Assembly: GCF_014199445.1 (NCBI RefSeq)
Contig: NZ_JACIJS010000001.1
Span: 506,940-570,939, forward strand
Direction: 5' to 3'
DNA from: Rubricella aquisinus
GTDB taxonomy: Bacteria > Pseudomonadota > Alphaproteobacteria > Rhodobacterales > Rhodobacteraceae
DNA: 64,000 bases
The stretch's first letter is position 1. Every line of letters begins with the position of its first letter. Shown here one piece after another: positions 3,582-58,218 of the stretch. Both the position numbers and the translations under genes were made by a program. Under the pieces are notes generated by a model, which did no database searches, was not told the DNA's origin, and worked only from the letters and a program-made list of their open reading frames with translations.

Positions 3582-4034
3582 CTAGATCGGTTTCACGATC
3601 ACCATGATCACGATCACCAGCATCAGAACGGTCGGCACCTCATTCATCAGGCGGTAATGTCGACCTGTCACGCTGTTCTGATCCGCAACAAAATCCTTCC
3701 GCCGCTGACCAAGCCAATGATGAAACCACGTCATTCCTAACACGCAGGCGAACTTGACGTAGAACCACCCTGATCCCCAATCGACCACACCCGGAATACC
3801 CACCAGGATCAGGCCCAGAACCCATGTCATGATCATCGACGGGTTCATGATGAGACGATACAATTTCGCCTCCATCACTTTCAATGTTTCTGAGAATTCA
3901 GACCCAACAGAAGCCCGTTCCGTATGGTAAACATACAGTCTAGGTAAGTAAAAAAGCCCCGCCATCCATGCAATTACTGCCATCAGGTGGAATGCTTTGA
4001 TCCATGGATAAGCAGTGATCAGTATATCAATCAT
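3582..4034 (-). CDS. hemJ: HemJ-type protoporphyrinogen IX oxidase
   Basis: 150-residue inner-membrane protein of the UPF0093/HemJ family, which oxidises protoporphyrinogen IX to protoporphyrin IX for heme (and bacteriochlorophyll) synthesis. It begins MIDILITAYPWIKAFHLMAV and has about four hydrophobic membrane segments. Characteristic histidines are visible in KAFHLMAVIAWMAG and MTWFHHWLGQRRKDF. The start is the ATG at 4034, with GAGGG about nine bases upstream. A longer frame to 4079 lacks support. It is the last leftward gene before the origin-like intergenic region. Confidence 0.92.
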   Translation of the reverse strand: MIDILITAYPWIKAFHLMAVIAWMAGLFYLPRLYVYHTERASVGSEFSETLKVMEAKLYRLIMNPSMIMTWVLGLILVGIPGVVDWGSGWFYVKFACVLGMTWFHHWLGQRRKDFVADQNSVTGRHYRLMNEVPTVLMLVIVIMVIVKPI

Positions 4035-4424
4035 AAGGACCCTCTGTTTCCCTATTTTTACGGGAGGTTCGCCATCCATTCAATCCGTTACAGACAGGCT
4101 TCCTATATAAATAATATCGAAGATATTTTTTATGATGGTGTAGAGCCTGTGAATCCTGTGGATGAATATCCCATCGTATTTCGCACACAGATTTATCCAC
4201 AACGCCCAAGCCCGGTCAAACCAACTCTGCTTGGGGAATCCGGCGCCGCGTCCAAGTTATCATTCCCCACCCTGAGCCTGCCTGTGGACGGGATGGTTTC
4301 GGCACAAAAACGCTGAAACAGGGTGCTGTGTCGATGAAACGGCATGCGTCCTTCTATTGATCCCCGCACGTCGCCCCGCCATACACGACTTATCCCCAGA
4401 GTTAAGCGCAGGGTGAGGCAGCCG
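4035..4424. other. Probable chromosomal replication origin (oriC)
   Basis: 390-base non-coding region between divergent hemJ and the DUF299 regulator gene. It holds one perfect DnaA box (TTATCCACA, 4193-4201), two one-mismatch boxes (TGTGGATGA at 4157-4165, TTATCCCCA at 4390-4398) and a two-mismatch box (TGTGGACGG at 4283-4291). An A/T-rich stretch, including TATATAAATAATATC and ATATTTTTTATG, lies at about 4101-4135, suitable for unwinding. Two GANTC methylation sites (4151-4155, 4236-4240) are present. In Caulobacter, oriC is flanked by the DUF299 gene (RP001), as here. Transcription diverges from this point and a parS site is 3.3 kb away. No CtrA-type TTAA-N7-TTAA box was seen. Confidence 0.82.
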
Positions 4425-5249
4425 ATGGCATCGAAATTCGACATTCACATCCTCTCTGATTCGACCGGAGAGACGGGATTTGCCGCCGTGCGCGCCGCGC
4501 TCGCGCTCTTTGATGATAAGCCGTTTACGCAGCACCGGCATGTTTTTATCCGTTCCACCAGTCAGCTTGAGGCAATCCTCGCTGGCTTGCCGCCCACGCC
4601 CTGCCTGATTGTCTATACCTTGGCCGATCCCGCCCTGATCGGGCTCTTGGAGGACGAAGCGGGGCGCCGCAACATAACGCTCGTGCCCCTTCTCAATCCC
4701 CTGATCGACGCGGTGGCCGATTTGACGGATCAGGTGCCGAACCCGCGCTCCGGCAATCAGCACACGGTGGATGATCAATATCTTGAGCGGGTCAACGCGA
4801 TTGATTTTGCCATGAGCCATGATGACGGGATCAGCGCGGATTACCTTTTATCCGCAGATGTGATCCTTGTTGGTGTCAGCCGCACGTCCAAAACGCCAAC
4901 CTGTATTTATCTCGCCTATCAGGGGGTGAAGGCCGCGAATGTGCCGCTTGTCCCGGGTCAGCCGCAGCCGCCCGCTTTGCTGGAGGCGATCCGCGCAGGT
5001 GCCGCCGTGATCGGCCTGATCGCAACGCCCAATCGGCTGGCACAGGTGCGCAAGAACAGGCTCAAGACACTCGGCGGTACGCATCAGGTGGATTATGCTG
5101 ACCTCGCCACCATTCAGGAAGAAGTCGCAGAGGCGCGCCTGTTCTTCGACCGGCACTCCCTGCCAGTGATCGACGTCACCCGCCGCTCCATCGAGGAAAC
5201 CGCCGCTGCCGTGCAGCTAGAGATGCGAAAGAAAGCAGCCAAACCGTGA
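4425..5249 (+). CDS. Pyruvate,phosphate dikinase / PEP synthase regulatory protein (DUF299)
   Basis: 274-residue bifunctional kinase/pyrophosphorylase that uses ADP to inactivate, and phosphate to reactivate, PPDK or PEP synthase, controlling the pyruvate-PEP step. The N-terminus MASKFDIHILSDSTGETG is typical of the family. The P-loop is GVSRTSKTP at residues 150-158, and the C-terminal helix is DVTRRSIEETAA. The ATG at 4425 is preceded by GAGG. An upstream in-frame ATG at 4344 would extend into the origin region and is not favoured. It overlaps the next gene by GTGA. Confidence 0.93.
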   Translation: MASKFDIHILSDSTGETGFAAVRAALALFDDKPFTQHRHVFIRSTSQLEAILAGLPPTPCLIVYTLADPALIGLLEDEAGRRNITLVPLLNPLIDAVADLTDQVPNPRSGNQHTVDDQYLERVNAIDFAMSHDDGISADYLLSADVILVGVSRTSKTPTCIYLAYQGVKAANVPLVPGQPQPPALLEAIRAGAAVIGLIATPNRLAQVRKNRLKTLGGTHQVDYADLATIQEEVAEARLFFDRHSLPVIDVTRRSIEETAAAVQLEMRKKAAKP

Positions 5250-31120: not shown

Positions 31121-31132
31121 GACAAATTTGTC
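31121..31132. promoter_or_regulatory. Palindrome upstream of phnF, candidate operator
   Basis: GACAAATTTGTC is a perfect 12-base palindrome in the 120-base gap between DUF1045 and phnF. A second TAGACAA half-site lies near 31187. GntR/HutC regulators bind short palindromes of this kind, and PhnF autoregulation is plausible. Confidence 0.45.
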
Positions 31133-31218
31133 TAATTAGGATTGCAGGAGTTAGCATTTTTAAACTAAGCTGGTTAATGTAACAACTAGACAACATATCT
31201 TTATCTTTCTAAGTATCC

Positions 31219-31938
31219 ATGACCATACAAACACAACCCATCTGGCAGGTGATCCGGTCCGAATTGACCGGGGAGATCGCCGACGGCCTGCACCTTCCCG
31301 GTGACAAGCTCCCGACCGAGGCGGACCTGTCGCGTCGCTTTGATGTGAACCGGCACACCGTGCGCCGTGCGCTGGCGGAAATGGCCAAGGATGGGCTGGT
31401 TTATTCCCGGCGCGGTTCGGGCGTTTTTGTGACTGCCTCCCCGACGGAATACCCATTGGGCAAGCGGGTCCGGTATCACCAGAACCTTGCCGCCGCGGGG
31501 CAGATGCCCGCTAGGGAGATATTGCAGCTCATCACCCGCCGCCCGACGCCGATCGAGGCGGAGGTGCTCAACATCAGCGCCACCACGCAGGTGCATTGTT
31601 TTGAGGCGCTGTCGCTGGGCAATGGCGTGCCGATTGCCCTAACGCATAGCGTGTTTCCCGCAGACCGGTTTCCCGGCCTTATCGACGCGATCGAACTGTC
31701 ACGGTCCGTGACGAAGGCTCTCGCGATCTGTGGTTTGAAGGATTATACCCGCATTTCCACGCGTCTGACGGCGAAAACGGCGAATGTCACGCAGGCTCGT
31801 CATTTGCGGCTCACACCCGGTGCGCCGATCCTGCGCACGGTCAGCGTGAACGCCGATCTCGACGGCACGCCAGTGGAATTTGGCACCACGCATTTCGCCG
31901 GGGATCGGGTAACGTTGACCCTGACGGATATGAGTTAG
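31219..31938 (+). CDS. phnF: GntR/HutC family regulator, PhnF-like
   Basis: 239 residues. N-terminal winged helix (IWQVIRSELTGEIADGLHL, LPTEADLSRRFDVNRHTVRR ALAEM) and C-terminal UTRA ligand domain. It matches PhnF of phosphonate loci. The ATG at 31219 has only a weak ribosome site, but no better start is seen. It is 120 bases from DUF1045 on the same strand. C-P lyase genes phnGHIJKL, which usually follow or surround it, are missing; a HAD gene converges instead with a four-base TTAG overlap. Confidence 0.85.
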   Translation: MTIQTQPIWQVIRSELTGEIADGLHLPGDKLPTEADLSRRFDVNRHTVRRALAEMAKDGLVYSRRGSGVFVTASPTEYPLGKRVRYHQNLAAAGQMPAREILQLITRRPTPIEAEVLNISATTQVHCFEALSLGNGVPIALTHSVFPADRFPGLIDAIELSRSVTKALAICGLKDYTRISTRLTAKTANVTQARHLRLTPGAPILRTVSVNADLDGTPVEFGTTHFAGDRVTLTLTDMS

Positions 31939-57338: not shown

Positions 57339-57691
57339 GTCCCAAGGGTGCCGGATAAAAGGAGGGCCGTCCAGAGTCCTCAGATGGCTTTTGCAGCGGA
57401 TGAGGAAACTGCGTGGACGCCGTCGCAAAAGCGCCTGCCTCCACCCGCTGTGCCAGCGGTGATTTTGACGATGCTGCCGCAAATGACGGGAAGCGTCTTT
57501 GTGCCTCTGCGCGCCCCAAAGAAGTCTGATATTGTATGTCCCGGACCTCTGGTCCGGTCTAAGGGGTGACACCAACGCGGCAAGCCGCAATCAATGCTAA
57601 AGCATTGATTATAAACAGATTATATAGATATTTGCACAAAATTTGGTGGTACAGGAAATTTTCCTCATAATATCAGTATGTTAAAAGGCGT

Positions 57692-57724
57692 GGTCCACGC
57701 TTGGTCCACACTCGGTCCACGCTT
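57692..57724. repeat. Three tandem 11-base repeats (iteron-like)
   Basis: GGTCCACGCTT, GGTCCACACTC and GGTCCACGCTT follow each other without spacer. Copies one and three are identical; the middle copy differs at two positions. Preceded by TGGTCC/CGTGG sequence. Could be a protein-binding array or remnant of a plasmid iteron. Confidence 0.6.
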
Positions 57725-57734
57725 AACTTGGTAA

Positions 57735-57760
57735 AAAGGCCGCTCTTGAGAGCGGCCTTT
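57735..57760. terminator. Terminator beside the SSB-like gene
   Basis: Long stem AAAGGCCGCTCT / AGAGCGGCCTTT around TG, with A/T ends that read as a U-run on the minus strand, lying six bases beyond the SSB-like stop. Confidence 0.85.
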
Positions 57761-57766
57761 CGGGTG

Positions 57767-58099
57767 TCAGTTCCGCTTTTTGGCGTCGGCGTTGCGGACG
57801 GCGCGGGTGTAGTCGTCGAGGGTGTTTGCGGCGAGCGTGACCCCGTAGACCGTCTCCCCATTCTTCTCGTAAGCGGTCTCCCGGATGGTGCCCGTGGCCC
57901 GGACAAGATGGCCCTGTTTGACGTTGCCCTCGGCCCAGGTGATGGCTGCGTCGTTGAAGAGGGTGATGGTGTTCCAGTAGGTGTTCTGCTGGAAGTTCCC
58001 GTCCTGATCGCGGCGGCCATATTCGGCGGCGATGCTGATCTTGAGGACAGTCCCGGCTTTGGTGATTTTGCCAACGCGGCTGAGCCTTTTAAGATGCAT
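57767..58099 (-). CDS. Single-stranded DNA-binding-like OB-fold protein
   Basis: 110 residues with an OB-fold resembling the SSB core: LKISIAAEYGRRDQDGNFQQ, WNTITLFNDAAITWAEGNV and KQGHLVRATGTIRETAYEKNG. It is shorter than chromosomal SSB and lacks the acidic C-terminal tail, as in some phage or plasmid SSB paralogues. ATG at 58099 with GAAAG upstream; TTG at 58114 is an alternative. It is in an AT-richer strip near the surface-polysaccharide genes and may be a transferred gene. Confidence 0.72.
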   Translation of the reverse strand: MHLKRLSRVGKITKAGTVLKISIAAEYGRRDQDGNFQQNTYWNTITLFNDAAITWAEGNVKQGHLVRATGTIRETAYEKNGETVYGVTLAANTLDDYTRAVRNADAKKRN

Positions 58100-58218
58100 A
58101 GAGACTTTCAGCAATACTTATAATGTTTATTATGTTAAATATTACGGAAAATCCGGTAGGCCCGGCCCGTCTGGGGTGAGCAAGCTGCATCTGGGGAAAT
58201 TTATCTGCATGTCGAGTG

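Follow-up and report, generated by a model that had tools for sequence, protein, structure and literature searches.

A predicted chromosomal replication origin between hemJ and a ppsR/DUF299-family gene of Rubricella aquisinus, with a conserved core and G-phased triplets

Does the non-coding gap between hemJ and a ppsR/DUF299-family gene in Rubricella aquisinus hold the origin of chromosome replication? The gap occupies positions 4035 to 4424 of the window, i.e., the whole 64,000-nucleotide stretch analyzed here (G000:C1:506940-570939), which belongs to a 3.24-Mb draft genome in 23 contigs. As a preliminary description of this DNA had proposed, transcription diverges at the gap: hemJ (3582 to 4034) lies to the left on the minus strand and the ppsR/DUF299-family gene (4425 to 5249) to the right on the plus strand, and both family assignments were confirmed with NCBIfam models over their cut-offs (TIGR00701, 2.6e-49, and NF003742, 3.1e-84, respectively). 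With the NCBIfam PpsR equivalog model NF049928, the right-hand protein stayed under the cut-off. The claim that DUF299 neighbors the gap as in Caulobacter while hemJ replaces hemE also proved correct, as no hemE directly adjoins the gap in the window, hemJ standing there instead, and hemE maps to C1:72046-73068, on the same contig but at a distance of about 438 kb. Since hemE adjoins only 4 of 42 family gaps, it was not treated as defining in the family. Left of the gap are rho and mnmE and, beyond the window, parA and parB, as well as genes that we take to be mnmG and rsmG from their translations. The gap separates a rho-hem side from a ppsR/maf-aroE-coaE-dnaQ side, as in alphaproteobacterial origins of the hem/ppsR type, and the gene order agrees with the alphaproteobacterial origin neighborhood given in the accessible text of a 2007 study (PMC1914354). 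The ppsR/DUF299 gene, searched with the window protein, was present in 3 of 37 same-family genomes, its own included, yet it flanks the gap in other families. The gap had further been described as the only long non-coding one in the first half of the window, which was not borne out: a crude ORF picker returned 12 non-coding stretches longer than 200 bp, seven of them in the first half, some of the 12 being artefacts of a tool that misses coaE, dnaQ, and others. Among those 12 stretches, a DnaA box with at most one mismatch occurs only in 4080 to 4343, inside the gap.

The DnaA boxes announced in the preliminary description were all recovered. The perfect box, TTATCCACA, lies at 4193 to 4201 on the plus strand, and the two single-mismatch boxes are TCATCCACA at 4157 to 4165 (minus strand) and TTATCCCCA at 4390 to 4398 (plus strand), the latter 26 bp before the ppsR start. 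A further weaker box is likewise present, e.g., TCATCGACA at 4329 to 4337 (minus strand, two mismatches), and several others carry three mismatches, including CCGTCCACA at 4283 to 4291 and GGATTCACA at 4148 to 4156, both on the minus strand. The last directly adjoins the box at 4157 to 4165, and the adjacent words TGTGAATCC-TGTGGATCA of this tandem pair recur at locus L064. The word TTTCGCACA at 4179 differs from the DnaA box at three positions, and a degenerate box position, TCGCACACA (4181 to 4189, plus strand, four mismatches), stands 12 bp before the perfect box. Over 41 gaps (the sample is described below), second boxes on the same strand as a near-perfect one were most often offset from it by 12 bp, in one direction or the other (13 of 118 and 9 of 110). 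The 390-bp gap contains three boxes with at most one mismatch against 0.06 expected from shuffles, or 0.059 at the density of its own genome (97 boxes in 644,854 bp), a cluster well beyond chance. Within these 644,854 bp, about 20% of the genome, a 400-bp stretch with three boxes was found in the gap only. The whole window has 16 such boxes against 6.15 expected, a count reached by 3 of 100 shuffles. The exact word TTATCCACA occurs at nine places in the genome and a reversed control pattern at 12, so a single exact box is uninformative and it is the cluster that counts.

The AT-rich, unwinding-like stretch that had been claimed for the gap was confirmed. The proposed DNA unwinding element (4103 to 4131, plus strand) has low stability, lies adjacent to the boxes, and aligns with an A-rich block of the relatives; the second least stable 30- and 40-bp stretches of the window both start at 4103, the longer one spanning 4103 to 4142, and among 200-bp stretches the least stable one begins at 3996. 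Other AT-rich islands of low stability, at 31123 to 31223 and 57588 to 58158, have no box with at most one mismatch. The GANTC sites also mentioned do exist (4151 and 4236, two against 0.24 at the density of the window), but their value as an origin mark did not hold: 76 sites were seen over 41 gaps against 62 expected from shuffles, so composition mostly explains the count, and this mark was dropped. The gap differs from Caulobacter-type origins in that it contains neither a full CtrA site (TTAA-N7-TTAA) nor an IHF consensus, and control of the gap by CtrA or IHF was rejected on that ground. Over the 41 gaps, there were four CtrA motifs (0.7 expected from shuffles) and eight IHF motifs (1.4 expected). 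A candidate stem-loop at about 4205 to 4235 was discarded as well, being no more stable than shuffles (z 0.28).

The corresponding gap was then compared across 42 loci, comprising the window, Pontivivens insulae, and 40 genomes of the same family whose rho regions were selected by position. On the left, 31 of the gaps adjoin hemJ, 7 rho, and 4 hemE; on the right, 32 adjoin maf, 7 ppsR, and 3 aroE. Together, the 42 gaps contain 119 near-perfect boxes against 4.86 expected, with at least one in 40 of the 42 (L092 and L101 have none). Three control gaps of the same loci, which we name fxsA-tim44, secB-fxsA, and rho-hemJ, the names secB, fxsA, and tim44 being our reading of the translations, had no box over a total of 12,223 bp (1.4 expected). 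Because boxes persist while the flanking genes vary over the 42 gaps, it is the gap rather than its neighbors that is conserved. The box at the right end recurs too: of 40 relatives, 23 have a plus-strand box with at most two mismatches in the terminal 55 bp of the gap, against 3.5 expected and 4 for the other strand. Gap length ranges from 276 to 555 bp in 41 of the loci. The remaining one, L091 (G082:C2), measures 2,251 bp between hemJ and aroE instead of the usual 0.4 kb or so, with maf and ppsR unmatched and a single near-perfect box, and its origin may have moved or been interrupted.

A sequence core could be recognized within these gaps. The first motif obtained by EM (27 bp) did not by itself single out the site, which scored 8.5 while at least five places in the organism's own sequence scored higher; a longer profile did. 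Built from 40 relatives without the window, an nhmmer profile matched 4098 to 4216 with an E value of 1.5e-9 in 644,854 bp, where the next best match had an E value of 0.11. A sequence-only model, R1 (39 relatives, again without the window), matched C1:511038-511156, i.e., 4099 to 4217, with an E value of 3.2e-9, and this was its only match in the whole genome at an E value of 10 or below. The motif and profile were built without the 2.25-kb locus L091, and alignment A1 and model R1 were made without L099 as well. The conserved core is accordingly placed at 4098 to 4217 on the plus strand; a shared core as a mark of the origin is a criterion proposed in the present analysis and taken from no paper. 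The R1 score of the window core is 37 bits, and that of the best family member is 75. R1 matched 275 of 296 family genomes, training genomes included, and 21 of the 296 had no core match at an E value of 0.01 or below under stricter filters. Among 289 genomes sampled from the class, it matched 152, and among 120 from the phylum, 26. Matches beyond the class numbered 18, none with an E value better than 1.2e-4, so the weak matches within the class include chance ones. The 25 best other-family loci, drawn from the 152 matching class genomes and with E values of 1.2e-6 or better, were fetched: 22 cores lie upstream of hemE and 2 upstream of rho, about 20 to 165 bp from the edge of the gene match and with the gene oriented as in the window, and 1 (L173) has no marker genes. 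Twenty further gaps were taken by their place beside rho, in genomes used for neither motif nor profile; in 5 of them no hem gene was matched and the end of the stretch served as the left bound. The profile matched all 20 (19 at E values of 1.3e-7 or below and one at 7e-4), and they contained 45 boxes against 2.0 expected. A chromosomal origin of a known kind, the alphaproteobacterial type, is well supported for the gap.

The common plan of the core consists of an AT-rich stretch, G-phased triplets, tandem DnaA boxes, and inverted boxes. In the window, the AT-rich stretch (4103 to 4131) is followed by the triplets ATG-ATG-GTG-TAG (4132 to 4143, plus strand), a DnaA-trio-like array with G at every third base, then by AGCC and the left-pointing boxes at 4148 to 4156 and 4157 to 4165. 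Rightward, the order continues with the degenerate box, the right-pointing perfect box at 4193 to 4201, the weak boxes, and the box before ppsR. The triplet zone of many relatives consists of GATGATGAT and then TTG-TAG-GG or similar; the word GATGATG occurs in 21 of 40 gaps against 0.8 expected, and always on this strand. Certain members of other families have GTAGTAGTAG-GG or GTTGTTGTTG-GG there, i.e., repeats of 3′-GAT-5′ or 3′-GTT-5′ when followed away from the box. DnaA-trios are given as 3′-GAT-5′ in the available sections of a study of the basal unwinding system (BUS; PMC8287927), and the other-family repeats resemble them.

The published trio rule, which fixes an adenine, nevertheless described these gaps poorly. 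With the pattern (.A.){3,} placed 0 to 16 bp from a box with at most two mismatches, the longest runs at the two left-pointing boxes of the window were one and two triplets, and the rule was rejected as a description of the gaps, since with this spacer it held in 23 of 41 gaps against 27.3 expected from shuffled flanks. When the spacer was 0 to 20 bp and at least three triplets were required, the adenine rule held in 29 of 40 family gaps (23.5 expected), 9 of 24 other-family sequences (10.2 expected), and 16 of the 20 further gaps (12.9 expected); for at least four triplets, the counts were 22 of 40 (10.6 expected), 5 of 24 (3.3 expected), and 8 of 20 (4.8 expected). At most, then, the adenine rule separates gaps from shuffles weakly, with a modest excess in the family. 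A second rule called for at least three [ATG][AT]G triplets ending no more than 20 bp from a box. It held in 15 of 40 family gaps against 2.0 expected and in 14 of 24 other-family sequences against 0.9 (L173, which lacks a marker gene, was left out of all counts on the 24), and the window passed it with four triplets and a 13-bp spacer. As this G rule had been framed after viewing the family and other-family sequences, window included, it was fixed and then tried on the 20 further gaps, of which it held in 11 against 1.0 expected, with 1 on the other strand. The G rule is thus better than the adenine rule at separating gaps from shuffles.

Features outside the gap were also considered. A parS-like site, TGTTTCACGTGAAACG, lies at 787 to 802 (one mismatch), and two perfect sites are found further left, outside the window (C1:505007 and C1:505815). 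These were the only three parS-like sites with at most one mismatch in the whole genome, all 3 to 6 kb from the gap and beside parA-parB. The GC skew, put forward earlier as a check, was fitted as well. A one-step fit over 356,850 contiguous bases of contig C1 (1-kb bins) placed the best step at window position 5,000, which 5 of 2,000 block permutations equaled; fits within 90% of the best extend from 3 to 24 kb, so the step is loosely placed, and the simple cumulative minimum falls at 21.4 kb, which, given the step fit, we judged to be noise. In G109, a relative with a closed genome, the syntenic gap (near 0.787 Mb) was taken as the origin; 16 of 20 samples of 20 kb had the expected sign, the exceptions being at 160 kb, 640 kb, 720 kb, and 1.92 Mb, and the skew seemingly switches to the left of the gap, at a distance of 0.15 to 0.3 Mb, making this weak support for the gap as origin. 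A denser-box region linked to dnaA had been named as one alternative. A single DnaA-domain gene was found, on a different contig (C4), and the 20 kb around it (C4:100001-120000) contain no 400-bp stretch with three boxes; a dnaA-linked origin was rejected, and the origin reading of the gap was not refuted.

With the box cluster, the core, the gene order, and the nearby parS sites all pointing the same way, the gap at 4035 to 4424 is very probably the chromosomal oriC, as the preliminary description had suggested. By analogy with studied origins, DnaA-ATP would bind at two places, the strong box (4193) and the tandem pair (4148 to 4165), and a DnaA oligomer would run leftwards over the triplets at 4132 to 4143 and open the AT-rich stretch at 4103 to 4131. 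The helicase would be loaded there and two forks would leave, while ParB at the three parS sites 3 to 6 kb away would segregate the new origins. The weak boxes at 4283 and 4329, like the one 26 bp before ppsR, may act as accessory sites.

The same boxes could instead belong to a divergent promoter through which DnaA regulates hemJ and ppsR, with the origin elsewhere, e.g., beside dnaA. The gap does lie between divergent genes, its right-hand box is close to the ppsR start, and DnaA also acts as a transcriptional regulator in Caulobacter, according to the portion of PMC3193534 at hand. A promoter alone, however, does not fit with a core that persists whether hemJ, rho, or hemE is on the left and ppsR or maf on the right, with parS, parAB, and the skew step converging at the gap, or with the lack of a box cluster in the 20 kb around dnaA, and we regard this explanation as improbable. 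It is less probable still, to the point of being hardly credible, that the conserved block serves the hem gene as a 5′ leader or regulatory RNA and is no origin. Such an RNA would account for the core lying so near the hemE match in 22 of the best 25 other-family loci and for hemJ or hemE adjoining 35 of 42 family gaps; it would not account for the rho neighbor in 7 of the 42 and in 2 of the best 25, Rfam gave no match in the gap at an E value of 1 or below, and what is conserved consists of DnaA-box sequence, present on both strands. An inactive relic of an ancestral origin that was replaced in this lineage would agree with the loosely placed skew step and with a core scoring 37 bits against 75 for the best family member. 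The gap is nonetheless still the sole model match in the genome, with one perfect box and parS sites clustered nearby, and we give a relic only the slightest chance.

If the gap is oriC, its closest described counterpart is Cori of Caulobacter crescentus, between hemE and COG1806/DUF299, likened here by published description. As far as the excerpted text of PMC1914354 goes, both have the ppsR-side neighbor, DnaA boxes, and an AT-rich stretch, whereas Cori has hemE where the window has hemJ; the strong box is TTATCCACA in the window and the G-box TGATCCACA in Cori (PMC4285127, in part). In the Rhodobacteraceae, 101 strains have been given an oriC with Ori-Finder by DnaA boxes, skew, and nearness to parAB, the kinds of evidence also examined for the window; the sections of that paper that were available (PMC6699656) describe no shared core or triplets, and the words hemE and DUF299 are absent from its main text. 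BUS elements with DnaA-trios, in the extracts of PMC8287927, combine triplets, a spacer, and tandem DnaA boxes as the window does. The 13-bp spacer to the better box in the window is the commonest length in that study, but its recurring base is adenine, (.A.){3,}, and that of the window is G. Among the matches listed for PMC titles and abstracts, a scope outside which most subscription papers fall, none concerned a hemJ-flanked origin or triplets in Rhodobacteraceae origins. The shared core and the G-phased triplets, both computational findings, go somewhat beyond the descriptions in the papers compared. The 2007 study, in its abstract, held that the ori sequences it described are similar only among closely related bacteria (PMC1914354); judging from the matches in other families, a short core may be shared more widely than that.

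We tentatively propose, at a little less than even confidence, that alphaproteobacterial origins share one homologous core across many families, which would have kept its position through exchanges of the flanking hemE, hemJ, ppsR, and maf, and that its unwinding module would be a DnaA-trio variant with G at every third base (5′-[ATG][AT]G-3′ repeats, partly 3′-GAT/GTT-5′) and not the published fixed adenine. An origin at the expected place is ordinary; the useful part is the core model, which locates the site by its sequence, independently of neighbor genes, in a draft genome with weak skew and few boxes. The triplets, in turn, yield a testable claim on which base DnaA reads in the single-stranded origin DNA of this class. 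As a minor observation, the second best profile match, at L131:5734-5762 on contig C10 of the same genome, consists of two DnaA-box-like words about 12 bp apart and is perhaps a DnaA-regulated promoter or the origin of another replicon.
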